Below, one piece after another: positions 28,388 through 45,764 of a stretch of 64,000 bases of DNA. Source of the stretch: Crambe crambe (lineage: Eukaryota; Porifera; Demospongiae; Poecilosclerida; Crambeidae); the NCBI GenBank assembly GCA_963924555.1, contig OZ004595.1, positions 4,334,599-4,398,598 of the forward strand. Reading direction: 5' to 3'. The stretch's first letter is position 1; every line of letters starts with the position of its first letter. A program made the position numbers and the translations under genes. The notes below the pieces were generated by a model. It was not told the DNA's origin. It did not search any database and saw nothing but the letters and a program-made list of their open reading frames with translations.

Positions 28388-30714
28388 TTACTGTGCATTG
28401 TCGATCACTTCATAGGTTCCATCACCATCAGTCATCTCAGACTCACCCTCTATGTTAGCTTGTGGCTTACTCCTTGAGGACCCATATGATGGGTTTTCAT
28501 TCAGGCCAAAACTTGCCCCCACCTGTGGCTTGGATCCATATGCAAGATTATCATTCAAGTCACAGCTTGTCTCCACTTGTGAGGGACTTTGTGGAGAGTG
28601 CTGAATCCTTCTCTTATAGTGTATGGTAGTGGCCAACAGCAGCAGAATAATAGTGATCAATACCAGAACTATCAGCACTAAAACAATCACTCCAATTGTG
28701 GTTCCTGACAATGGAATACCTACAGTGATAACATAGGTAAGTATAATGAAAGGGAAAAAAATTTATGCTAAATAAAAAGGTTAGTCTGTACTTTTATCTA
28801 TAACAGTTTCTGTGAACAAACATCAAAATTATGCTACAGTACACCTTCAATAATAATCCCTACATCACTGCCTCCCACCAAGCTGCTTTAATTGTTCATG
28901 TCAGTGTAAAAGTTCTGCTTGGTTTAGTAGTGATGTAAGGATTATTATTGAAGGTGTACTGTAGCATAATTTTGATGTTTTTTCACAGAAACTGTTATAG
29001 GTAAAAGTACAGACTAACCCTACATGACCTTTTTATTTAGCATAAATTTTTTCCTTTCACTTGGTTGTTTACTTTTTATGTTATTTAGAGCTAGAGCTAG
29101 GTACTGATTGGCATGCGCGTACACATGTGATCGTGACAGACAGTTGTGTGTGACCATAGATACTATAGGTTACGTAGTCTATAGTATCTATGGTGTGACA
29201 AAATTAATGATGTCATTAATCAAAATGGCTGACTATTGAAAAGTCGTTTGATTACTTTGGAGGAAAACTGTGTAGATAACGATGGTAAAAGCACATTGCG
29301 TGATTATAACTGCACAAGTTGATATGAATTTGATTGTCATATGTGAAAGGATCATGGAGTTACAGCCTGGTAAGAAGATGAATCTGGTCATAAAAATTTA
29401 GATGGCGGCTTGTGTCGATTGTTGATGCTGTTCTGAAGGAGTTTGAGTGGACATATCATCTTCTGCATTTTTTCCAGATGTAAGAAGTTTGTAGCAAGAA
29501 TAGAAGAGATACAGAGAGTCCAGTTTGTATTGTTCAAATGAGAGAAACCACGCCCATTCCATACTAACCCTACATAGAGAGTGCTACCGCACTCTTGATA
29601 GCTAAATGCATGTCTATAGGATAATATAGTTATTTGGAATACTTATTAGTATAACAAATCCACTGCTCCATCATTCATAATTATTCTGAATCTACCACTC
29701 ACATTTTACTGTTGTGCATGCAATGCTAATAGGCAACAGGTCAATATACATAATGAAAGTAAAAACATTTCTTCTAAATGAAAGAGTGATGTAGGCTTGA
29801 GTGCATGACTATAAAAAGTATGGAAACAAGGTGCTGGCTATGTACTGCATTTGCTCTGCAGAATTGACAAATCTTACATGACTGCATTTGTCACTGTGCT
29901 CTGCTAACTGTCATAAAATTGACATAAACCCTACATCGCTGCTGCCATATTTTTTTTGGCTACACCTTGCGGCGATGTAGGGTTTATGTCAATTTTATGA
30001 TAGTTAGCAGAGCACAGTGACAAATGCCGTCCATGCAGTGATGTAGGGTTTGTCAGAGCAAATGCAGTACATAGCCAGCACCTTGTTTCCGTACTTTTTA
30101 TAGTCATGCACTCAAGCCTACATCACTCTTTCATTTAGAAGAAATGTTTTACTTTCACTTGTTTGCACACTTTTTTCAAGGGGCATACCAAATAATCTTA
30201 CCACGCCCACCGCAACTTAGCAAGACAGTTTTTTCTCAGTGTAAAACTAACTGTGTCTACGAAGCGTCTACAAAGTGTATAAACTAACTGTGCTGCCTAC
30301 GAAGTGTTCGAGAATTTGAGTTGTCCATAATAATATAATAATCTTCTTCTTGACAGCCATAACTCCCGACTGCTTCATCCTATATCTACGATCTTGGTAC
30401 CATATTGAAGCTCTACACCTGATCTAAGGAATGGTATAGTTCAAATTGAAGTAAAGCTCAAGTCCTAACTGTCATTGCCGTGTGAGTGCCTTTGTTAATG
30501 AGCGTGGGTGTTTTGCATGTCAAGCCTACATAGAGAGTGCTACCACACTCTCTGATAATGGCACACTGTGTACTGTATACAGTGCATGCAATCATATCAT
30601 GGAACTTAGGAACTTTATGGAACTCAGGACTGCACATGACTAAATCACATTATAATGATATTTCACACATGCATAGTACACACTAGTCTGGCGTCGCCAG
30701 CCCAGCTTTTCTTC

Positions 30715-30745
<31 letters not shown>

Positions 30746-33700
30746 GGGATGGGGAAGAAAAGTGGTCTGGGAGCTCTAGCATCAACTACTTGTGACGCCC
30801 GCGCCATCTCTCAAAATTAATTTAAATTGCAATATACATGCGTGTTGAATAATTTTCCGAAGCCAAATTGCGAACACATCACCCTTGAAAATTGCTGATA
30901 CAACTTCCAGCCGTTCAGGCTTCAGGCCAGGTATTCCTAGAATAAATCGTGGGTGTGTCTCGCCAACATTAATACTACTTCACGTGACTGAATAGAGCAA
31001 TCTGATTGGGATGCAGCTATAGCTGCGTGCGTGGGCGACACAAGTAGTTGATGCTAGAGCTACCAGACCACTTTTCTTCCCCGTCCCCCCAAAAAGAAGA
31101 AAAGCTGGGCTGGCGACACCAGACTAAGTACACACATGACATGGGCATTATGGTATCTTTAGTCGAGCATACAAAATTAACTTCACATTTTCCACCAATA
31201 GACTAACAAATACAGCTGCCAACATCAAAAATGTTATTAGAAGTTTCTTGACATAACACCAACTTCTCAGTGAAGTACTCCACAAATTCTAATAACCATT
31301 CTTGTGCGACATCCACAAATGAATGCATTTTGTGAAATAGAATGAGCAGTTTATGTTATTAAATTCTAAGCATTGTAGCCATGTCTGTCTACAATCCTGT
31401 CTCAGAAAATGCTTAGTAAGTCCAGATGACAGAAGACTTATCTTCAAGTATAGATTTAAGGAATCAGTTGAGAGAGAAGAGTTTACATTGACAAAGCAGT
31501 GGAGTCAATTAGCTGTGGGAAATGCAAGTGGGAAGATGTAATTCCCTATTATGTATATAGTTACTTAGTACCTAGTGTTCCTGACTCATCAGTGGTGGTG
31601 GGGTTGGTAGGTGAAACAAAGAGAGGGGGGCTGCTTGTTAAACCTGATACTCCATTCCTGGCAGTCACAAAGAACTGATAGTTGACACCAGGGGTTAGAC
31701 CTGAGGCACACATAAATATGCACAACCACCAAGGTGGGTGTACACAAAACAGAAATGCTAGTTAGCTCTACAGAATGTGAGAGCTAATTGGACAGTCGGA
31801 AAGTGGTTAAGTGCTTGACATGATTAGCCATTATCTAGAGACAGACACATACATGCATGAGAGACTTATAACCACAATAATACCTGTGATAGTTCCCATG
31901 GTAGTGTTGACAGTGACTGCCTCTACACGTCTAGAACTTCCTTCTTCTTGATAGGACAAGACATACACAGTGTCATTCCTGCCACCAAAGTTCACTGGGT
32001 GGTCCCATGCCAAGGTAACTGAGACTGACTCCATTCGAACACTTGTTACTGGAGAAGGAGGTTCTAAGGAGAAAATTGCGAGGATTATAGAAAAAATGAC
32101 AAAAAATCAGAATCATATGAACATCTGATACGTGCAAGGTCACAGGTGTGATCATTAAGGAAATTACAGTTAGTCTGCATTCAGTTATCAAATGATGTCT
32201 TAGGGTGGAGGGGGATGGGAATATTAAACTACTCTGAAATTAATGGTAGCTATAATTATACAGCACAATGCTTTGCATTCATCTGGTGAAGGGACCAATA
32301 TGCATATTATCTTACTCACGAGTGCATGAAAGGTCCTCCTCTCCTGGTGCTCTGTAGTAGCCCTCCACACAGGGACATATTGCCAACCCAGGTTCCATGC
32401 CCACGCTGTTCTCAGGACAACTACGACACTCACCATAAGTCATTGACAGGTAAGTACCAGCCGCACAAGCTGTAAACAACACAGAGTTATAGAGTTTCAT
32501 ATTCATAATGATATTGTCCTTAACAGTCTAACCTATACATAATGATTATTCACACATGCTATAGCATATGCCATGGGCTGTTTAGTCCAGCACAATTAAC
32601 CATATGTACTTCACCATAATTTGTTTAATTCTAACAAATATAGCTGCCAACATCTGTTAGAAGTTTCTTGAGAATGCACTACATAACACCATCCTTTCAC
32701 TGTAAAAATGAAAGTGTGTACTGCACACTAAATTATCCCAATATACACACTAATACCAAAACAGTGTGTGCATTGGGACATAATGGTGTGCAGTAAACAT
32801 TTTTGTTTTTACAGTGTTCAGTGAAGTAACCAAAAGTACTCCACGAACAAAAGTGTATGGTTACACAAATTCTAATAACCATTGTTGTGTGACATCCATC
32901 AATGAATGTATTAATTTCGTGAAGCAGTTTATGTCATAGTTAGAATTGACTCTCCACATGAAGAGAAGATCATGGCAAGGCTAGTGATGATAATTAGCTA
33001 TAGGTGGAAAAAAAAAAGCTTCAAAATTGGTGACTCCAGTTCCTTCTACCATAGCTAGATCTATCCATCACTCATTTGTGTTCGAATTACCAGCTCTTGC
33101 ATGTCTGATGGAACTAAATTTTGGGTGCATACATAACTTATTCTGAGTCAATACTTGGCAAATTAATAATTACAGAGCAAACTCAAACAATTTTTTTTGT
33201 AGTTATCAAGTTAAAGATGTCATAATATTATGTTGTCAAATTGCAGAATTGAAGAAATGTAGTAGATTCCAAAAAATAAGAGAGAATAACTACTGTTAAT
33301 ACTACTGTACTATTTCAATTGTATAAAGTAACAACCAACACCTTAACAGTCAGACACCTTATGACATTGTGTAACTACTACAGCTAGCTATGCCAACCTA
33401 CCTGTTTCCTCACTTTGGATAGCAATAGCCATTCTCATTCCAGGCTCAGTGTTGGTTGGAAAGCATGGACCACCCTCTTTCGTCCCATGAGGAAAAGCTG
33501 TTTTAAGAAAAGGTATACATAGCTGGCTGAATTAACTGCTTAGGTCACAGCTTAATGGTGTTATAGCAAGAATTAAATCTTGTTGAGAACAGTACAGAGG
33601 GCAACCCATTAGTACATTACACTATGAAAAATAGGAGATATCCTAGCCTGAAATCTGTAGGAAACTTGGAAAGAAATTCATAGAACACGCAAGGGCACGG

Positions 33701-34466
33701 CATGTTTCTGTGTTTCCTATTCAAAATCTTATGAAATATGCCGTGCCCTTGTGTATCTTACAAAAAAAACACTGCGTTTCCTTCAAGTTTCTCTTGGAAA
33801 CACAAAGGAAATCTCTAATTTTTCATAGTGTTATTGAATAGCTACCTACCCTATATGATTATGTACTTACATGCATAATAGTATGTTTCTCCTGGTCTAT
33901 AATCAAATGAATTATCAAGTCCTTCAGAATTTTGATTGATCGTTATTTCTACAAATCTGAGCTGAGCAAAACAAGTTCTACTGACTAGCTGTGAACTAAC
34001 ACAACCTGCTTCAATTGCACTGCAGTTGCACATATCATACTGCCTTCTGTCAGTCTGTAATTGTAATAAGAATTAGCTATAACAATATTCAGTTATACCA
34101 GTAGTTCCTTACCAATACATAGATAGTGCTGTAGCTATCGTTTATACAATTTATTTTAAGTTTAACATCAGCACTCACAGTTAACGGAGAGCTGTAAAAT
34201 GATAGTAAGATTTAAAAAAAAAATCTTTTCTGCAGTGGGTTAGTAAATTTATACAAATTATGTAACTACATAGCTACGTACCTATACTCTCGATTGAGCT
34301 ATGATAAGCAATGACTACGATAATCTTACTGCATGACAGCTACTTACTTGGGCTTGTAGTTTGCAATGCCACTTCTGGTCCAATTGAGCTCAATGCCTAG
34401 GACTTTACCATTTTGAATCAGAGTAGAGCATCCAAGTGCAATAAATACAAGCCATTTAAGAAACAT
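28388..34466 (-). CDS. Gene D: ephrin domain on an Eph-type stalk with tyrosine tail, 422 aa
   Basis: Nine exons: 34466-34348, 34191-34113, 34054-33871, 33497-33402 (ephrin part), 32469-32320 (EGF-like), 32063-31884 and 31700-31572 (FN3), 28719-28388 (transmembrane plus tail); the first encodes the signal peptide MFLKWLVFIALGCSTL. Lengths sum to 423 codons with consensus GT..AG throughout. Residues 24-155 match the ephrin receptor-binding fold: IELNWT (ephrins IYWN), LTVSADVKLKINC (ephrins NDYLDIYC), TDRRQYDMC (ephrins VDREQYxxC), FDYRPGETYYYAS (ephrins FEFRPGxxYYYIS), then GGPCF and MRMAIAIQ. Cysteines at 55, 75, 94 and 139 match the ephrin set. The last ephrin exon ends in phase 1, exactly as the Eph LBD exons do before the same EGF exon. 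Transmembrane helix about 320-343; tail Y373 (NLAY), Y391 (NPSY), Y415 (TYEVI). FN3a is 3 residues shorter than in paralogs. The alternative is a separate truncated ephrin gene upstream of an orphan stalk; unspliced read-through after 33402 stops within a few codons and gives no GPI signal. Confidence 0.75.
28746..29598 (+). mobile_element. Hairpin-ended composite element, copy 1 (foldback head family 2)
   Basis: The first 315 bp (28748-29063) form a long palindrome (GAAAGGGAAAAAAATTTATG.. and its complement, centred near 28900). A non-palindromic tail of about 530 bp follows (GGTAAAAGCACATTGCGTGA, CTTCTGCATT, CATACTAACCCTACAT), ending with a hairpin GAGAGTGCTACCGCACTC, then TTGA and T. It is homologous along its whole length to 61263-62114. 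No coding sequence. It lies in the FN3-tail intron of gene D. Confidence 0.65.
29755..30555 (+). mobile_element. Hairpin-ended composite element, copy 2 (foldback head family 1)
   Basis: A 410-bp palindromic head (29755-30165), nearly the same as 10941-11348, is followed by a tail with CTACGAAGCGTCTACAAAGT, TTCTTGACAGCCATAACTCC and ATCTTGGTACCATATTGAAG, and by the terminal hairpin AGAGAGTGCTACCACACTCT at 30532-30553, CTGA, then T. The insertion site can be read from related introns at 9300-9325 and 53071-53095 (ATACATAATGG). ATAATG flanks the element on both sides, so either a 6-bp duplication or an A|T Helitron-like insertion fits. Confidence 0.65.
30684..31126. mobile_element. Mutator-like MITE, 9-bp target duplication
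   Basis: It has 443 bp with TAGTCTGGCGTCGCCAGCCC / GGGCTGGCGACACCAGACTA ends and terminal inverted repeats near 100 bp (CTCTAGCATCAACTACTTGT also pairs). A perfect 9-bp duplication AGTACACAC lies at 30675-30683 and 31127-31135. Nine-bp duplications with long inverted repeats are the signature of Mutator-like elements. One arm carries a run of 24 G where the other has a short C run. No transposase. Confidence 0.85.
32698..32816. mobile_element. CACTGTAAAAA-family MITE in gene D intron
   Basis: It has 119 bp with CACTGTAAAAATGAAAGTG and TTTTTGTTTTTACAGTG ends, TT on both sides, and inner GCACACTAAATTATCCCAAT pairing with its near complement. It lies in the intron between the last ephrin exon and the EGF exon of gene D. 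Confidence 0.7.
33620..33830. mobile_element. PIF/Harbinger-like MITE inside the ephrin-domain intron
   Basis: It has 211 bp with 20-bp ends CACTATGAAAAATAGGAGAT / ATCTCTAATTTTTCATAGTG and TTA on both sides, the 3-bp duplication typical of PIF/Harbinger elements. Interior GGGCACGGCATGTTTC pairs with CATATGCCGTGCCC-like sequence. It sits in the intron between ephrin exons 3 and 4 without touching splice sites. Confidence 0.65.
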
Positions 34467-34499
34467 GGCTCATACAACTTCGAGAAATCTGTTTTTGTT

Positions 34500-36330
34500 C
34501 ATGTAATCTATAGATATACTATCTATCTATATTTATGTGGAAACGGCGCTATGTTCATGAGCACATGCAGTCATATAATTATGCAATAGTGATCTTTGGG
34601 AAATTGAACTGCCATTCAAGCATAATAGCATTAGTAAACAAGGAGGGAATGTAATTATGAAACTGTTTCTGTTTCATAAAAATATTTTTAAAGCTAGATT
34701 AACCTGTTTAAAATTGTCTTTATCCAATGAAAAATTTACATCACATGAAAAACTATAAAGTAGCTAGTCTTGTGCTTTTTATGTGTTGAAATATGAGGAA
34801 CATGCACTGTCTCCTCTATGGAATAACAGCTTTTCTTTTTTTACTGGTGCATTAATTTTACTTACATGTTACATTCTTGAATCAATAATGAAAATTGTAG
34901 CAGCCATGATATCCATCAAAAGTCCCTCGCATCATTTCCATTCCACTAATATTTTACAATGATGCAGAGATTGATTCAATTGAGTCACTTTATATCAGAC
35001 TGACAGTATTTCCTTTGCCTCCTTCATGGATCATTAACATTGCCACTAAGACCCCAATATCTTTGTGCAAGTTAAATATCACCTCTATTTACTTTATCAA
35101 TGCAAAAATGGACTGGGGCATAACTTTATCCATAGCAATATCAACCCCTGAAATTGCCCTCTACTTGATAAATTACCACCCATTCTCTCTTTGGTCAATT
35201 CCATCAAAAGTACCATTTCCATGTTGGACTCCAGTATGGTGTAGGAGTGATATGGGGCCCCGGGCCCCCTGTGATATGCATGCCCCCCAGCCATATATAA
35301 CTAGTGAAATGGGGGCTTCAAAGCGCTAGTATCCAGTGAAATAGGGCCCATGCACGCACAGCTGGGAATAGCTAGCTATGTCAGTATTCCTAGCTACACA
35401 GCCATCAAAAAGTACTTGACAGGTGGAGTGTATCCTGATGGCTATGACAAGCAGTCTAAGCATGGTCTTAGAAAGACAAGGAGGAAGATCCACGAAACTG
35501 CAGCATATAAAAATTGCTATAGGCGCTAGGTTGATGTGTTGATTTGGTGGGCAGAACTTCTTGGAATTAGCCCCTAGAGACCCTGGCTAAAAACTGGAAT
35601 ACTGACTAGGTTCATGCGTGCCCGCCCTGTTAATCTAGGCATGCATAGCTAGCTGCCATGAGTTTCAGGGGGCTAACTGTGTGAGGTAGGTGCCATTGAC
35701 TTGGGCTAGCTGGAATGCATTGCATACAAGAGGCAAAGATACTTATTATAGATTCCTCATAGCTACAGTATTCTAATGGTGTGTTAGATAGTTGGAGTAT
35801 TATAACCATGGTCAAGTGTAAATTTTCTGACTTGCTTCATAGACTCTGTGACGTTGACCATGCAGACTGAGACACTTTTCTAGTGCTATGTGATACAGCT
35901 TACGGAGTAGAAAATAGGGAGCCTCACCTAGCTAGATAGCTATTTTGTGGTAGAAGTATCCAATTGTGGACCAAGATGACATTTTCTCATCTATAGCATG
36001 TGACATATATAGCTAGAGTTTCACCACGCTTCTTCCACGCTTCCTCCAAGGTGATTTTCATAGCTAGACTGGACACTGTAAAGCTAAAAGCTTTTATTTT
36101 GCTAGGAAGCTTGGAAAATTGCCCCATTTCACTACTAGCTACACCAGGAAATCCAGACAATTCCTTCCTGCAATTGTGGCACCTAACTTTTCATAGTCTT
36201 AATGAAACTCTAGTAGCTACATACGTATTATAGCTAGCATGACTGAACCCAAAATGGTTAGGTAAAGGTGGCCCTGCATTTCTGGATGATCTTTCATTTT
36301 CAAGTGGTGCTACCATATGGCATAATAACT
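34500..36330. other. Intergenic DNA upstream of gene D, no gene recognised
   Basis: AT-rich sequence between the gene D start and the gene F 3' side. It should hold the gene D promoter, but no confident TATA or initiator was identified. There is a short CCCGGGCCC-rich patch near 35250-35300 and short open frames without family resemblance. No exons of the array type are visible here. Confidence 0.4.
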
Positions 36331-36953: not shown

Positions 36954-37095
36954 AAAAAAAAAACAAACAAAACAACAACTAAAAAATAACAAAAAAACAA
37001 CAAATAAACAGTATTAAAATTAATGGTTGAAAAAAATTTTAGCCAGAAATTAGCATAAGGTATAAAAATGAAAACAGCACACATCTATAGCACTA

Positions 37096-37228
37096 TTTAA
37101 CTGGCTTTGCTGGAAAAGGCTGAAAACTCAAGGTATCCTGCTACTCCTTCCAGTATAGTGAGTCTATGCACAAGATCTTCAAAAAGGGACATTTTACAGG
37201 TGATGGATTCCAGCATTGAGTGATCTTT
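37096..37228 (-). pseudogene. Degenerate last kinase exon downstream of gene F
   Basis: The minus strand matches the last kinase exon of genes F and G ([23 protein letters not shown]) but with several small deletions and lost frame. Flanks on both sides (36690-37650) match the 3' flank of gene G (56970-57780), so this is the end of a further G-like unit left beside gene F. Confidence 0.75.
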
Positions 37229-37945
37229 CATATAAAATTTAATTAGTTACACTTTTTGTATAATTATATAGCTATTACTATACTCAAGCTCTCTGATCTT
37301 GCAAATTTTGAGGACTGATATGATGTAGTAGCCATGCAAGGCTCAAGATTTAAACTCATGCACAAACTATTATCAATGCAGTGTAAAACTCTTCCAGATT
37401 GCAGCAAAAATCATTTTCTAGTCATCAGCTTTGTCACTCTCAGCCTCTACTGTAGCATTGTTTGTATGTAGCTTGAGTAGAGCTAGCAAAAAGTGCACAT
37501 ATGTACTCATATAGTTGTCCACATAATACCTTCCCCTATATTATCATAATATGATACAGTACCCACTAAGGTGATCAGGAGAGCTCACCAATCATATGTA
37601 GCCAGCTACTAAGGTTTATTATTGGGTTGGCAAAGATGCCAGTTACCTGATTGGTCAGTTAGTGTAAACTGCCTATTGCTTGTCCCGGAAGTTTTGAAGT
37701 AGTTCACTCCTACCTACTGCGCATGTGTAGTAAGGACATCGTAGGCAAGCTTGATTGATTTCTACAGCGTTTTTTCAGGGTGAATTGTAGGCGCTAGGCT
37801 TATCTAAGTGGATTGTCGGCCTAGTAGGCCACCGCTAGGCTGTAGCAAGTGTTTTGTGGCAAGCATTACAGGTTCACATAAACAGCTTCCTACGTAACAG
37901 CTGCCTGGCTGATATAAGTAATTTACCATAATATCATATGATTAA

Positions 37946-38049
37946 TAGGCAATCACATGTAATTTGGGTATAATTGCATGAGGAACTGGCTAGGTAATTG
38001 CACGAGGCTTCATGCAAATTACACTCAAAAGCATGTAATTAGCTACCTA
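37946..38049. mobile_element. Second copy of TAGGYAATCACATG MITE
   Basis: Shorter relative of 23005-23142, with TAGGCAATCACATG and CATGTAATTAGCTACCTA ends and the shared ATTGCATGAGGAACTGGCTA interior. It lies about 100 bp past the gene F stop. Confidence 0.55.
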
Positions 38050-38145
38050 TGCTTATTATTCAAGGAAAAAAGTACTAATAAAAGGATTAATTTTTGTGAT
38101 ACAAAAATAAACTAATTAAAGTGAGGTATAAAAATGAAGTGCTTC

Positions 38146-41100
38146 TTAAATACTTTCAAAAAAGGCTGAAAACTCAATGTATCCTGCTACTCCTTCCAGT
38201 AATGAGTCCATTTCTTGCACAAGATCCTCAAAACAGAGACGTTTTTCAGGTGATGCATTCCAGCATTGAGTGATCAAGTCATACCTTTCATATGAAATTT
38301 GGGTTAAAATTTTTTGTACTTATGATATTATAACTACTGTAAGGCTCTCTGATCTTCGGACTAGACATTAGGCATGCAATCCAACCCAGGGTTCATAGCT
38401 GTCCACATACTGTATCACACTATGTAACAGGTACTTGTTTAGTATGATGGCAAGAAGCATTAATTTTATATGTCATAGCTACAATATAATTAAAGAAAGG
38501 TTTTCCACTCTAACTCCAAAAGCATAGGTGTTGATATGCCATAGATTTATGGAATGGAGGCTTTGAGAGTTAGTACCACTAGAAAAAAATGCAGCAGGAA
38601 AGCAGAAATCAACATTAGGAACTAAAAATCTCTAATATCAGCCATAGCCAACTTACACTTTATGTGTGCATCCTAGATTGCTGGGTTTCTGAAGTCTTTC
38701 TCCACTTTGGAGGAATTCTATGAGAGCTGAGGAATGAATAGTAGGGTAGGGGTTGTACCCAAGACTAAACACTTCCCAACAAGTTACTCCAAATGACCAC
38801 TGAGCAGACAATAAATGGAATAAAATAATATAGCCATGGTGGACACATGAGATTGTAGTAGATAATGCTTACCACATCTGTCTTCTCAGTAAAGATGCCA
38901 TCAAGAAGACTTTCCAAGGCCATCCATTTCACTGGGAGCTTCACTGGTGATTCCCTATCTCCTTTCCCCTGTCTGAAGTAGTTGCTGGAATATATATCTT
39001 CAGAGAGACCAAAATCCCCCACTTTGATCACAAAATGGTCATCTATCCTACAAAAATAATTAGACTATAAGGTTATCAACTCATAAAATACAGGTTCAGA
39101 GCCTTGAAATTAAAACCACAATCTATAATTATTGTAGTTTTAGTGAGCTGTCTAGCTAGTTTATGGTTAGCATTTAACTCATTAGTTCAAGTGCAAGCAA
39201 TTCCTAATTATTGTATAATTGCACTACTACACATGTGCAGACTAGCCTAATAGTAATGACATTTCTGAAGATAATTATGATAGGCAAGCTTGATTGGTTT
39301 CTACACATACAGCATTTTGTCAAAGGGAACTAGGCGGATTGTTGGTCTATAGTAGACCACTAGGCTTATCTAAAGCAAGCATTACAAGTTCAGTTTCCTG
39401 CATGCTGGAACCAATCAGTCGCTTACATGCAGTTACGAGCAGCCAAGTCCCTATGTACAATTTTTTCGGCTGTTAGATAACTCATTCCCTTAGCAATCTG
39501 GAAGCAGATCGAAAGAAGTTTTCTCTGGGAATCTTCAATCTTGAAAAGAATTTTTAAAATCATCACCACATAGCTAATAATTATTATAACCCAACCATTT
39601 CACTTCCAGCATCTTTGGGTAGAGTGAGGTGAGATCTCTTCTCTTTTCAAGTAAGCCAGGAGACTGCCATTGGCCATAAAGGGCATAACAATATACGGAC
39701 TTTCTCCTACATCAGTGCACACTCCAATTAAATTCATCACATTCGGATGGTTGAACATCATCATCTTTTCACTCTCAATCATTAAATTTTCAATATCCTT
39801 AGGTGTATAGAGACCTATCATGATCATGAAAGCCATTCAGACTTGTATAGCTATCCCTTGATTAGCTATACCTTTCAATGTCTTGATAGCTACAACTTCT
39901 GTTGTACTTCTTTCTCGCCAACCTGTGAGGTTACCTTTGTATACCAGTCCAAATTCTCCTATAAAGACATGATACAATGTTTATTGCTTGAACATTGGTG
40001 CTAGGTGACCTTCCCCATGCCCACATAAACTAGTTAGCTAGCCAAATTGAAAACGATTCAGAGGCTGCATTCATTTGAATTGTAAGCCTGTATGCATGCT
40101 CATACAGAAGCTCTGGCATAATGTACTCATCCCATAACTAACATTATTATTTCCCATACCTTGTCCTATAATATTGATGAGTTGAATAAATCGACCAGGT
40201 ATGATTACAGAAGAGTCAGAAAACTGTCTGGTGAATGGATTTTCAATCTTGCCATCTTTCAGTCATGAATCATAGATCATAATAATAAATGACTTTAAAA
40301 ACTTGCCTACCAGGGTTACTCATAACAGAGTTCACTTTTGAAAGTTCCATGGTTTTATTGCTATACATAATTAAAAAGTCAGATATCAGTTACATAGCCA
40401 TAAGGAATTAATAATATGCTAGCTTGAATCACTACAAGCCTTCCAAACTATTGCAAGAATATTAACTTACATCACTTTTAATGGTTCTGCATGTTCTGTG
40501 TCTCCTTTCTTGATAATTTCTGTCAGTATTTATCATCAGAATAATGATACACATACACAAACATAAAAACATGCAGCATGTATCCTAGTTACACTAACAA
40601 ACAATCAAGCTCAAGTGCTCTATAAGTAAGGATTTCCCTGATGACTGGCCATCTTACATTCTAGTATGTTCTAAAAAGGCATTCCAATAGGATATTAGGA
40701 GAATGAAATGTCCTCATACTGATTTGAGTTCTCTAGTACTTCCTCTAATGATGCTATTAGTGATATACTCACTTAATTTTCGACATCGCCAAAACCTGTA
40801 AGAGAATAAATGAAATCTGTTTAATTATGTTGAAGTTGCTACATAATAGAACACTTACACAAATACTGCAATAATGATTGACATCAAGAGGATGATGACA
40901 GCTGCAAGCACTCCCAGTACAATACCAATGACAAATCCAGACTCAGTGGTGGTAATGGTAGGTGAAACAAAGACAAGGGGCTTGCTTGCTACACTTGATA
41001 CCCCATTCATGGCAGTCACAAAAAACTGATAGTTGACACCAGGGGTTAGACCTGAAGCACACACACATACACATTAAATGTTACTATTCCAGGAAATCAC

Positions 41101-44100
41101 TATGATCCCAGCTTGCAGCAATGCTACAATAGCAAGCAAGTCTTGACTATGAAGGCAATGAGAAACCTTAAAGAAGAACTATACAGTAAGTTTCAACTAA
41201 GTATAAACATGAAAGGACAACCTTCATAGCAGCCTTATGAATTACTGTCCACATCCCCACTTGTGGACAATATATAATATGTATATGAGATGAAGTAAGT
41301 AACCAGAGTCAAGCCAATACTAATGTATGTACTTCATGGTTATGTAATTGGTAATGCAATATTACTTATTACTTCAGTGCTGCACATGCAGATAATATAC
41401 CTGTGATAGTTCCCATGGTAGTGTTGACTGTGCCTGCTTCTACACGTCTAGAACTTCCTTCTTCTTGATAGAATAAGACATAGACAGTGTCATTCCTACC
41501 ACCAAAGTTCACTGGGGAGTCCCACACCAAGGTAACCGAGTCAGAAGTCAGCAACTCTATTCGAACATTTGTTACTGGAGAAGGGGGCTCTGAAAAAAAT
41601 ATATATTGAATTCAGTATTAACTGTTATGTAGTGTCAGGGGCAGATCCAGCAATTTTGAAAGGGAGGGGGTCCAACATGCCCCTCCTGTGGAAGTCACGT
41701 CTGTTGGAAACCACTAGCATTTTCCAACCATGTACACTGCCGACTTGACGTTACCATATAAGGACATTCATGTTTCATGCTGATAAATCATATTCATTCA
41801 TAGACTTGATCATGGGCGTAGCCAGGGGTGGTTCGGGTGGTTCGGTCGAACCACCTTTTCAAAATGAATAAAAATATTTGCAGCGAGCAAGTGCAGCGAG
41901 CGAGCTGACTCTCAGGTCATGACTTATTGAAATTGTATATATATATATATATATATCTAGGTCTGCACACTCCAAAATGCCCCAGGCGTATGTATGGTAC
42001 GGTACGTGTCCGTGTATAGTAGCGCCTGCGTGTGCATAATGCGCATGCTCCAATAATTGTACTCGACATGCAAGCGATTGTTTTCTATAACCTTTTGTCA
42101 TAGAGGCGCTAGGCTTATCAAAGTGAATTGTAGGCGCTTGGCTTATCTAAGTGCTTGTGGTAAGTATTTACAGCTTTTGATGCATGGAGCTTTCTGGTTG
42201 GAACCACCACTTACATGACTTCTTGTCTCTGATGCAATATCAAGCACTAGCTACACATAAACCCTTCAGAGACTACACTGTCACTCTCATCCAAACCACA
42301 ACAAAAAACAAGGGAGCACATGCTTGCATGGATTTCGGAGCAGATTCAAAGAGCCTTCTTTTCCACAACCATAGCAGATGCACTGCAGCATAACCGGATT
42401 ATGATCCATGATGGTATTACTTACCGCCGCGCCAGGATCTAGGATCAGACGACTCTTCGCGCGCGCTCGGGGTGTGGCTGTATTATACTACTAATAATTA
42501 TGTATGCGCGCGCGCACGAGCAACTTCAGGCGGCGCGCGTGCACGTGCACGTGCAGGCCCAATGGAATAACGACCCTGTACCAGACCTGATAATGGCACT
42601 GGGACCAGCAGATAAAGGCCACTCTCCATTTCCCAGTCCAGAAAGAGCCTTCTATGGCTTTGCCTGTTATCTCAGTTCGTACCTTGTCGCTGGTGAGCCA
42701 TTAGCTTGGCTAGCTACGTGCAGAGTACTGACCCTTAAAATTTAATGTAGCATAGCATGTTATAATTATTAGGTAATTAAATTTTAGGTACTATTATAAA
42801 TGTTTGCCTTCATATATAGGGTTGTATTTGCTGTGGGCATTTCTTCCTGATGAATACCTTCATTTGATTGGTTTTTCATATTTCCCACAAAAGTGAGCTG
42901 GAGGCACACCCACCATGGCCACGTCCTGGCCTTACCACTAAAATTTTGCTTCCTGCGGGCCTGAAAGCTCGCGCGATCTAGCAAGAGAGCCTGCAAGAAA
43001 GCCCTTAAATAGCAAGAACAGAAACTACAAAGTCACAAGTAGCTGAAAGAGAGAGCCAAGCTATAGCTATGACCACCATAAAAGCTCGCTCTCTTAAAAA
43101 TAACTATAATAGCATTAACAAAAAAAAAACAAAAAAAAAAACAATAAAAACTATGATGTGATGATAATGACAGTGCATGGAAAAAAATAAGATCAGTATA
43201 ACTCCTATAATTATTTATATACCTACAAAAATAAATCAGTGATAACCAAATGATAATAAGTTTACTACATGCCAAGGCATCCAGTTTTTAAAAGACTAAC
43301 TTGTTAAGTAGCCAAAATTGCTATAAAATTATTCTGTCAAGAACAGATTGTAAATCTGAAAAGCTCTATCTCAAACCCTCCCCATATCAACCACTTAGAA
43401 GGAAGGAATTGGCTTTCAAAATGGTTTGGGTTTCCCTCATACGTACCATGTCTCTTACATGTCAACTATCTCCCCCACAGACCTGAAACACTGGATGCTC
43501 TACTGAAATGAAATGATGGAAATATATGGACCACTAACTAGGATATTTGACACAATCTCCCTCCCCCCCCCTCCCCCCCCCCCTCCCCCCCCCCCCCCCC
43601 CCAATATCCAGCAAGGTCATCAAGATGCAATTTGACTCATCCAGCTCTTTTTTGACCAGATAACTAGTCATCCCTACATCACCTTCGATAGTGCCTACTA
43701 TCAAAAGGCTTTAGAAATCATTCAAGCCTTAATTACAGTTGGAACATGCACATTATGCACTTGCAAGGTGCTACTTTGCATGACACAAACACATACATAC
43801 CATCGTACGTATATAGGTACATTTTAGGAGTGTAGACCTATAACAATTTCAACCTGAGAATCAGCTCATTTGCTCCACTCACTCGCTGAAATTGATAACT
43901 TAACAAGATTGCTAAATCAATAGTTGCATGTGGAACACTCATGCATCCAATATGTATAAAATATTTGAATTTGTTCTGTTAATGTCACATTCAGATTGAT
44001 AAACGTTTTCTTAATATCAGTAACTATTTTAATAACTTAGCAAGATTGCTAAGTCAACTGTGCATGCTATCATGCCTAAGTAATGTAATTTAGTCTCTGA

Positions 44101-45320
44101 GCCATTTATAAATCACAGAGTGAGTTATCCATGTAATCAATACCTCACACATTCATCTAGTAAGGACTCACGGGTACATGAAAGGTTCTCTTCTCCTGGT
44201 GCTCTGTAGTACCCCTCCACACAAGGACATACTGCCAACCCAGGTTCCACACCCACACTGTTCTCAGGACAGTCACGACACTCACCATAAGTCATTGACA
44301 AGTAAGTACCAGCCACACAAGCTGTAAATAGCACAGTTTCATATTCATGATAAATTGTCCTATGCAGTCTAACCTTCAGTACATGATGTTCTATTCTCTG
44401 TTGCCCGGAATCCTTGGTTACACTGACAACCTGACACAACACTCCATGTCCCTCCTGGACTACAGGTCAGAATTGGTGCTGCTCCACTCTCTGTACCAGC
44501 ATTTGCTACACACTGTCCTGTCACTCTGAGTGGTTCTCGACTTGGTGTTGTAATTGGAGGGGAAAGGGTCTCTGGTCGAATCATAAGTCCTACAATTTCT
44601 TGGGGGCAGACATTGTAGAATACTATGATACGAGTAACTGCTATACATGTGTCTTCATCTCTAATGGCAAGGTAGAATCCACTTGCATTAGTTGCAAAGT
44701 TGAGATACCTGGTCTGATTCTGTAGATTGTTATCATTTGGGACTACTCTACTTATTAGCACATAGTTATTGGTATTCCTGGCTGCAACACTGTTAATAGT
44801 AGATGTCTCATATCCATACCATGAGGAGATCCTTGAGCAGCCCTCAATACAACCTCCCTGCTCAAATTCTACTTGTATACTGACTTGAGGCAAATGAGTC
44901 CCATCGACTGTTGTTCTGTTGATGAACTGTGTAATCAGCCAGTTATCCTGGACACCATCTCTGAAACCACATGCAGTCACAACCTGTCGGCAAGCATTGT
45001 TAGCACTCTGGAACCACTGCAAATATAAAACACACTGAAAAATCCACTTCACTTACAGTAGCTCCTCTGCCTTGTGACTGAATACCATCAACATCCACCT
45101 GCTGCCATGCAGCATCAGTTTGTGATGATAGTAAACGGATGTAGTTGAAAGAATCCATCAGTGTCCTTGTATTGACAGGGTATACTGGAGGAGCAACTCC
45201 TGGTACATTGGGTAAAGTACTTGTACAGAATGAGTCACCATCTCCAGGAGCCTGAGCAATTATCATTGATGGCAGAGCAGTCAGACATATGAAAAAAACA
45301 CCACTATACATTATGCCCAC
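38146..45320 (-). CDS. Gene F: Eph-type receptor tyrosine kinase with one frameshift
   Basis: Fifteen exons: 45320-45057, 45016-44374, 44321-44172, 41589-41401, 41051-40859, 40795-40773, 40519-40471, 40360-40311, 40255-40160, 39958-39872, 39814-39596, 39539-39427, 39047-38873, 38799-38657, 38284-38146. Ectodomain: signal peptide, Eph LBD, Cys-rich and EGF-like, one FN3. Transmembrane helix ([20 protein letters not shown]) shares the FN3b exon. Kinase: [11 protein letters not shown] loop, VAIKTLK lysine near residue 578, [61 protein letters not shown], ending soon after CWNASPEKR with no SAM domain. The kinase motifs resemble Met/TAM/insulin-type RTKs more than vertebrate Eph kinases. Exon 39814-39596 has one base more than its gene G partner (219 against 218) in the YLKRE region, so as read the frame ends about 14 codons later, before the catalytic loop. 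This is a real defect, a polymorphism or a base error; all else is open (about 843 aa otherwise). Confidence 0.8.
42593..42892 (+). pseudogene. Duplicated first two exons of PIGP
   Basis: 42593-42692 encodes [20 protein letters not shown] and onward to SSYLVA with a GT donor; 42820-42892 encodes [20 protein letters not shown] and onward to YFPQ with its own AG and GT. Both are nearly identical to PIGP exons at 55359-55458 and 55561-55633, including the intron, but exons 3 and 4 are absent, so no complete subunit can be made. It lies on the opposite strand inside the EGF-FN3 intron of gene F. Confidence 0.85.
43561..43602. repeat. Poly(C) tract
   Basis: About 40 nt of nearly pure C with a few T, in the gene F EGF-FN3 intron. 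The matching site in gene B (17519-17537) is only CCTCCCCCAAAACCCCCC, so the run expanded after duplication. Confidence 0.85.
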
Positions 45321-45764
45321 AGCTATTGCAGTCTACAATTAACTAATCAAGGCAGCTCAGATTCTATTGCTCATATGTACAGATTTGGCAATAATGGGTG
45401 TGGTAGCTAATGAATATGATTACCAGGCTATTTGTATTCACATGCATAGCTGTACTTGATATAGCTAGCTACGTATATAGCTATCAGCCAGATAGTTACA
45501 GCAGGCCGATCAGAGTTCTTAATAAGATTCATGCATGCATGGCTTTGAGTTTTGAAGGAGTTCTTAATAAGATTCATAGCTAGGTGCTGATAAATTAATT
45601 CTTATCAAATACATGTATAATAGCTAGCTAATAGTGTAGTAGATTCGCTTCTAGCTAATATTTGACTATTCTACTTTAGTAGCTACAGGTAGCTATAGGT
45701 AGCTGTTATAGTATTCAAGTATCATCATAGCATTGACTGTAACTGCCTCTAGCTACATGACTAG

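Follow-up and report, generated by a model that had tools for sequence, protein, structure and literature searches.

Ephs and ephrins are the textbook pair of separate membrane proteins signalling both ways, and chimeric genes produced by phase-1 exon shuffling form a general class. Kinase-less Eph architectures have been described in sponges by Krishnan et al. 2019 (PMC6485061), and the extracts of that article used here mention no ephrin-headed one. According to the same extracts, sponge ephrins are divergent and were recovered via iterative hidden Markov model (HMM) searches; for the Spongilla ephrin, sensitive HMM or structure searches were needed, yet the plain Pfam profile picked it up too, as stated in an excerpt of PMC10176882. 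Legend 2 of Arcas et al. (PMC6993872), again an excerpt, includes two bacterial proteins. No described ephrin-Eph fusion was found in the open-licence PMC articles searched. Here we describe gene D of the sponge Crambe crambe, in which an ephrin head stands in frame with an Eph stalk, an observation made in a first-pass annotation and confirmed here. The gene lies in a stretch of 64,000 nt (assembly GCA_963924555.1, contig OZ004595.1, positions 4,334,599 to 4,398,598), hereafter the window, to which coordinates without a contig name refer. The window is part of the contig called C18 below, and the genome searched comprised 143 Mb in 119 contigs, with further loci on C17 and C3. As judged from its sequence, gene D is probably a recent exon-shuffled chimera of an ephrin gene and an Eph-array gene, most likely specifying a membrane-tethered ephrin on a receptor-type stalk.

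Gene D runs on the minus strand from 34466 to 28388 in eight exons, which add up to 1,269 nt or 423 codons including the stop (422 amino acids). All seven introns are GT-AG, the exons end in phases 2, 0, 1, 1, 1, 1 and 1, and neither a stop nor a frameshift interrupts the 423 codons. The first-pass annotation had reached the same codon sum with nine exons; the sum stands while the count falls to eight, and the peptides, coordinates and consensus splice sites that it reported are all present.

The head, claimed to be of ephrin type, reads as a divergent ephrin domain. Ephrin (PF00812) was its sole match in a hmmscan against Pfam (E=0.00036 for the whole library), and with the full protein Ephrin (E=0.002) came second after fn3 among 12 Pfam families at E up to 1. 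The same family was matched by 5 of the 7 heads of the genome, D included, every other family reaching a single head, with E no better than 0.037. Alignment by hhalign of the head profile to human ephrin-B2 and ephrin-A5 gave a score of 29.9 over 105 columns (probability 39.6, E=0.00031), whereas none of 60 column shuffles exceeded 20.0. In the alignment to ephrin-B2, residues C55, C75, C94 and C139 pair in order with the four canonical ephrin cysteines, from which two conserved disulphides are formed according to the extracts of PMC6485061; W29 aligns to the tryptophan of the YWNSS motif (hhalign). An exon-by-exon genome search with PF00812 gave zero matches here and in 14 control genomes alike and was uninformative; the ephrin-head copies were located instead by protein search of the genome.

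As had been proposed, the remaining exons are the EGF, FN3, transmembrane (TM) and tail exons of the Eph array, here from a gene type without kinase. Pfam fn3 was matched with E=9.2e-11, for one FN3 and not two, and Ephrin_rec_like weakly (E=0.069). Residues 157-304, comprising EGF and FN3, were collinear with EphA4 (E=1.6e-15) and EphA2 (E=3.5e-15) in a phmmer search of the PDB, in which two titin entries ranked higher on FN3 repeats alone. The profile check suggested for the predicted protein returned Ephrin, below its gathering cutoff, and no Ephrin_lbd (PF01404) at E up to 1. Likewise, no kinase or SAM was found among Pfam families at E up to 1, and exon 8 stops after a short tail. The EGF acceptor TTTACAG is identical in all six window copies of that exon. 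All 6 window copies of the TM/tail exon, two of them decayed, retain YEVI and the final AQ, and the tail tyrosines of gene D recur in other copies of exon 8. We take YEVI also to match the YxxPhi sorting motif. In an ephrin the membrane anchor (GPI or TM) comes after the domain with no receptor-type stalk between; in gene D the EGF and FN3 exons separate the two.

These stalk and tail exons recur mainly at C18:4.24-4.53 Mb, others being found at C18:4.08 and 1.80 Mb and elsewhere. Across the genome PF01404, the Eph ligand-binding domain (LBD), gave 33 matches, 30 of them above cutoff. An LBD match lies at most 1.2 kb upstream in 21 of the 26 EGF exons of the C18 arrays (4.08-4.54 Mb), two of the 21 falling below the Pfam cutoff. 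The EGF exon of gene D has no LBD match within 1.2 kb upstream, and the ephrin head occupies that place; of the four other EGF exons without an LBD match, two follow another EGF exon at a distance of 1.2-1.5 kb, one is broken and one isolated. The first-pass annotation had stressed that the ephrin part ends in phase 1 like the LBD exon. This is so, exon 4 ending in phase 1 and the LBD-to-EGF intron being phase 1 in all five window genes read. Since introns 3-7 of gene D and the LBD-to-EGF introns are all phase 1, any join there keeps the frame, and the phase match is weaker evidence than it might seem.

Comparison with ephrin paralogues located the join. Eight ephrin-head loci were found by protein search, a weak extra match at C18:3320950 (E=0.005) being left out. 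One of them, at C18:2603574 and 1.76 Mb from gene D, encodes a plain transmembrane ephrin: the same four head exons lead into a linker exon and a TM exon, and the tail is its own and longer. Head identity to D is 96%. D and three paralogues agree in head exon lengths and nearly so in splice sites, all four sharing the exon-4 donor, and the silent divergence of the D head from its relatives is ~0.068. The DNA alignment of D runs from 34497 to ~32936 with the 2.60-Mb copy and from 34508 to 33016 with the 3.33- and 3.35-Mb copies, and then stops. Below the array-type piece that follows (Table 1), intron 4 corresponds to the intron preceding the EGF exon elsewhere in the array, up to the old LBD donor. 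On the upstream side, 36993-37634 aligns (73%) to the 3′ region of another array kinase gene. The copied segment keeps its introns and is therefore not a retrocopy. Both parent families can be identified, and the junction lies in an intron of matching phase. The join is best read as a DNA-level exon shuffle, in which an ephrin segment was copied into the Eph array. The interpretation offered in the first-pass annotation is thereby supported in part, namely as regards ephrin head, Eph stalk, phase-1 junction, intact frame and a genomic origin in which an ephrin copy became joined to an array gene.

It is possible, if unlikely, that the two halves are juxtaposed fragments, an anchor-less ephrin piece beside an LBD-less array gene, with a transcript ending in intron 4 (giving a secreted head ending SEETGRLA) or with none. 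Read-through past exon 4 meets a stop after four residues, and the 3.33- and 3.35-Mb ephrin copies are likewise without a TM exon like that of the plain ephrin. Decay is frequent in the array, stops or breaks affecting 4 of 8 window copies of the FN3 first-half exon and 2 of 6 of the TM/tail exon (EGF copies are open in 6/6 cases, FN3 second-half copies in 4/4). The 5′ flank of D is unlike that of the plain ephrin: the flank that D has in common with the ephrin copies reaches only 31-42 bp 5′ of the ATG, and co-copying of the flank with the ephrin was rejected on that ground. Intron 4 is, moreover, a patchwork containing a dispersed repeat. Against fragmentation stand the eight exons and their splice sites, all intact and in phase, the exon-4 donor shared with three paralogues and the EGF acceptor shared by the six window copies. 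Over 34466-33016, D and the plain ephrin differ by 21 insertions or deletions (indels) in introns and none in exons; exact indels assigned to the D branch number 8 in introns and 0 in exons. Synonymous changes make up 33 of 66, compared with 24.5% expected without constraint (P=7e-6), when the D head is paired with that of the 2.60-Mb copy and each stalk exon with its nearest intact counterpart in the window, a pairwise measure whose branch is shared with the paralogues, so that the constraint may lie on theirs. Changes on the D branch of the head amount to 4 silent and 4 amino-acid ones (P=0.085), and FN3 exon 7 is little constrained (ratio of non-synonymous to synonymous rates, dN/dS, 0.56-0.79). 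The decayed copies, the short common flank, the mosaic intron and these last three points on constraint all weigh against the chimera reading.

The same is true of several features of the head, which might belong to another cupredoxin-like domain, in which case the ligand-on-receptor reading would fail. The Pfam Ephrin score of the D head is 20.9 bits, under the 25-bit gathering cutoff, and a profile of the seven heads gave no ephrin match in the PDB. Additional cysteines, C77 and C84, are present, and in the hhalign alignment the human LW residues are missing from the segment that we take to be the G-H loop, which bears on the choice of Eph partner. In the head of the C3 relative, Ephrin (E=0.0073) stands slightly behind an unrelated family (E=0.0026). 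We nevertheless regard a non-ephrin head as quite improbable, because Ephrin is the only Pfam family found on the D head and matches five of the seven heads, the four ephrin cysteines occur in order, and the hhalign score exceeds those of 60/60 shuffles. Published sponge ephrins, too, were recovered through iterative HMM or structure searches, as far as the excerpts of PMC6485061 and PMC10176882 go. Still more improbable is an assembly artefact, in which an ephrin contig was misjoined into the Eph array. Near-identical ephrin copies do exist elsewhere in the assembly, but the D head has substitutions of its own, and insertions in its introns, that none of the three copies compared shows. The copied piece is flanked on either side by array sequence, so that two misjoins and a lost locus would be required.

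Table 1. Positions of gene D exons, junction segments and neighbouring features in the window.
Feature	Position	Strand	Description
Exon 1	34348..34466	-	Signal peptide and first ephrin strand (NWTRSG); exon common to 3 paralogues
Exon 2	34113..34191	-	Ephrin domain (LTVSADVKLKINC)
Exon 3	33871..34054	-	Ephrin domain core (TDRRQYDMC ... FDYRPGETYYYA); Pfam Ephrin covers residues 60-138
Exon 4	33402..33497	-	Ephrin domain end (GGPCF ... MRMAIAIQ); ends phase 1
Exon 5	32320..32469	-	EGF-like/cysteine-rich exon of Eph array; acceptor TTTACAG
Exon 6	31884..32063	-	FN3 first half
Exon 7	31572..31700	-	FN3 second half
Exon 8	28388..28719	-	TM helix, then short cytoplasmic tail up to YEVIDNAQ and the stop; window has 3 further intact copies and 2 decayed ones
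Segment common to ephrin genes	32936..34508	-	Short 5′ flank, exons 1-4, introns 1-3, part of intron 4
Putative chimera junction in intron 4	32924..32935	-	End of ephrin-derived sequence, start of array intron sequence
Array-type piece	32634..32923	.	Otherwise found in array FN3-to-TM introns; dispersed palindromic repeat inside, ~32698-32817
Upstream neighbour, Eph receptor tyrosine kinase	37100..45332	-	LBD, cysteine-rich domain (CRD), EGF, FN3, TM, kinase; 3′ end approximate
Decayed FN3 and TM/tail copies	45821-45723, 19858-19706, 4931-4838, 316-239; 4123-3830, 1275-1021		Stops or breaks

The upstream neighbour of gene D matched Ephrin_lbd (E=1e-11) and Ephrin_CRD (E=9.9e-6), and three of its exons matched kinase (E=2.5e-11 to 2.2e-12). 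Its 3′ kinase-tail region is present twice, at 37114-37300 and 38160-38356, the two being 77% identical. The array holds two Eph-type kinase genes (62604-57248 and 45332-38149) beside kinase-less ones. Kinase exons of the window were located by motif and by listing of open reading frames (ORFs), for the gene beside D also by Pfam; the kinase call for gene 62604-57248 comes from motif and ORFs only, and its LBD match lies beyond the window end. A kinase family search scored 121 of 1,944 candidates and is uninformative as to absence. The decayed copies appear to reflect birth and death inside the array.

In the 5′ flank of D, no other match was found up to 36349 among the ephrin and array loci compared, nor any other genome match for 34490-35227 among the matches listed. 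A dispersed repeat lies ~0.8 kb upstream of D (35238-36058) and occurs at no fewer than 39 other places, at 77-90% identity. A five-codon upstream ORF (MSHVS, stop; 34473-34456) overlaps the start of the gene D frame and is present in D and the three closest ephrin copies.

Among these copies, C18:3330582-3331402 and C18:3350265-3351085 are near-identical heads with repeated Gly-rich linker segments after them. Downstream of either, nothing resembling the TM exon of the plain ephrin was found; a TM scan gave nothing above threshold in 8.6 kb downstream of the 3.33-Mb copy and two unrelated hydrophobic ORFs in 8.3 kb downstream of the 3.35-Mb copy. At C18:2576-2608 kb and 2676-2690 kb, outside the main array, three ephrin heads lie within ~70-115 kb of three Eph LBD matches. 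Ephrin and Eph genes are loosely linked there.

Under the chimera reading, a genomic ephrin segment carrying signal peptide and receptor-binding domain would have been copied into the tandem Eph-like array, where it took the position of the LBD. If transcribed and spliced as modelled, gene D would yield a single-pass type I surface protein composed of an ephrin head, EGF, FN3, a TM helix and a short tyrosine-bearing tail, with no kinase. In trans, its head may bind Eph LBDs on the adjoining cell, for instance those of neighbouring Eph kinases, and trigger their forward signal; the kinase encoded next to D is a possible partner. In cis, the common stalk could bring D into Eph clusters, or let it block or poison these. 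Any reverse signal would run through the tail, which may alternatively function in endocytosis.

A second ephrin-headed chimera, as yet a candidate, may exist on C17 (3625889-3628943). Downstream of ephrin exons at 3625889-3627250, on the same strand and in phase, lies an exon (3627837-3628772) encoding a receptor-type ectodomain and a TM segment without kinase, with a tail exon after it. This six-exon model has an open frame of 508 amino acids; one of its introns is GC-AG, and the acceptor at the join looks weak. The ectodomain had no Pfam match at E up to 0.1 and has relatives at six other places in the genome, including the next gene, which on manual reading has a signal-peptide exon of its own and precedes kinase-motif ORFs. 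An ephrin-headed kinase was considered for this locus and rejected, since these ORFs are apparently part of the next gene and the ectodomain to which the ephrin is joined has no kinase. No signal-peptide exon like that of the next gene was found in intron 4 of the candidate; the sole Met-started ORF of at least 20 amino acids there sits in a palindromic repeat and is hydrophobic enough to mimic a signal peptide. The repeat belongs to the family found in intron 4 of gene D. Recombination at this repeat was considered and set aside: the family is present in intron 4 of both chimeras but dispersed genome-wide, so its co-occurrence there is possibly due to chance. More broadly, and as a tentative idea that we hold to be somewhat doubtful, ephrin heads might be mobile modules repeatedly captured by receptor ectodomain genes, with an Eph stalk on C18 and another ectodomain on C17, giving functional hybrids and letting one array supply both sides of a diversified cell-contact recognition.

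If the chimera reading is correct, gene D would be a natural domain swap between signalling partners and would test whether the head alone suffices for binding, and stalk and tail alone for clustering and reverse signalling. Its young age and mapped junction would make it a clean case of new signalling proteins arising via recombination in introns, and it suggests that the Eph arrays of this lineage may diversify recognition through head swapping.

With transmembrane ephrins of the ephrin-B type, gene D shares a signal peptide, an ephrin domain with the four canonical cysteines, a single TM segment and a tyrosine-bearing tail; unlike them, it has Eph-type EGF and FN3 between head and membrane, and owes its TM segment and tail to an Eph-array gene. 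Eph receptor tyrosine kinases resemble it in the EGF/cysteine-rich exon, FN3, TM segment and position in an Eph gene array, whereas D is without LBD, has one FN3, and no kinase or SAM was found in it. The kinase-less Eph-like receptors of sponges, as presented in the extracts of PMC6485061, have the same Eph architecture without kinase, and the donor of the D stalk and tail is of that kind; the array genes of this type carry an Eph LBD where D has an ephrin domain. Finally, as in other phase-1 exon-shuffled chimeras, extracellular modules of phase 1-1 are joined within an intron after a segmental copy. What sets D apart within this class is that it unites a ligand with the receptor family of that same ligand.

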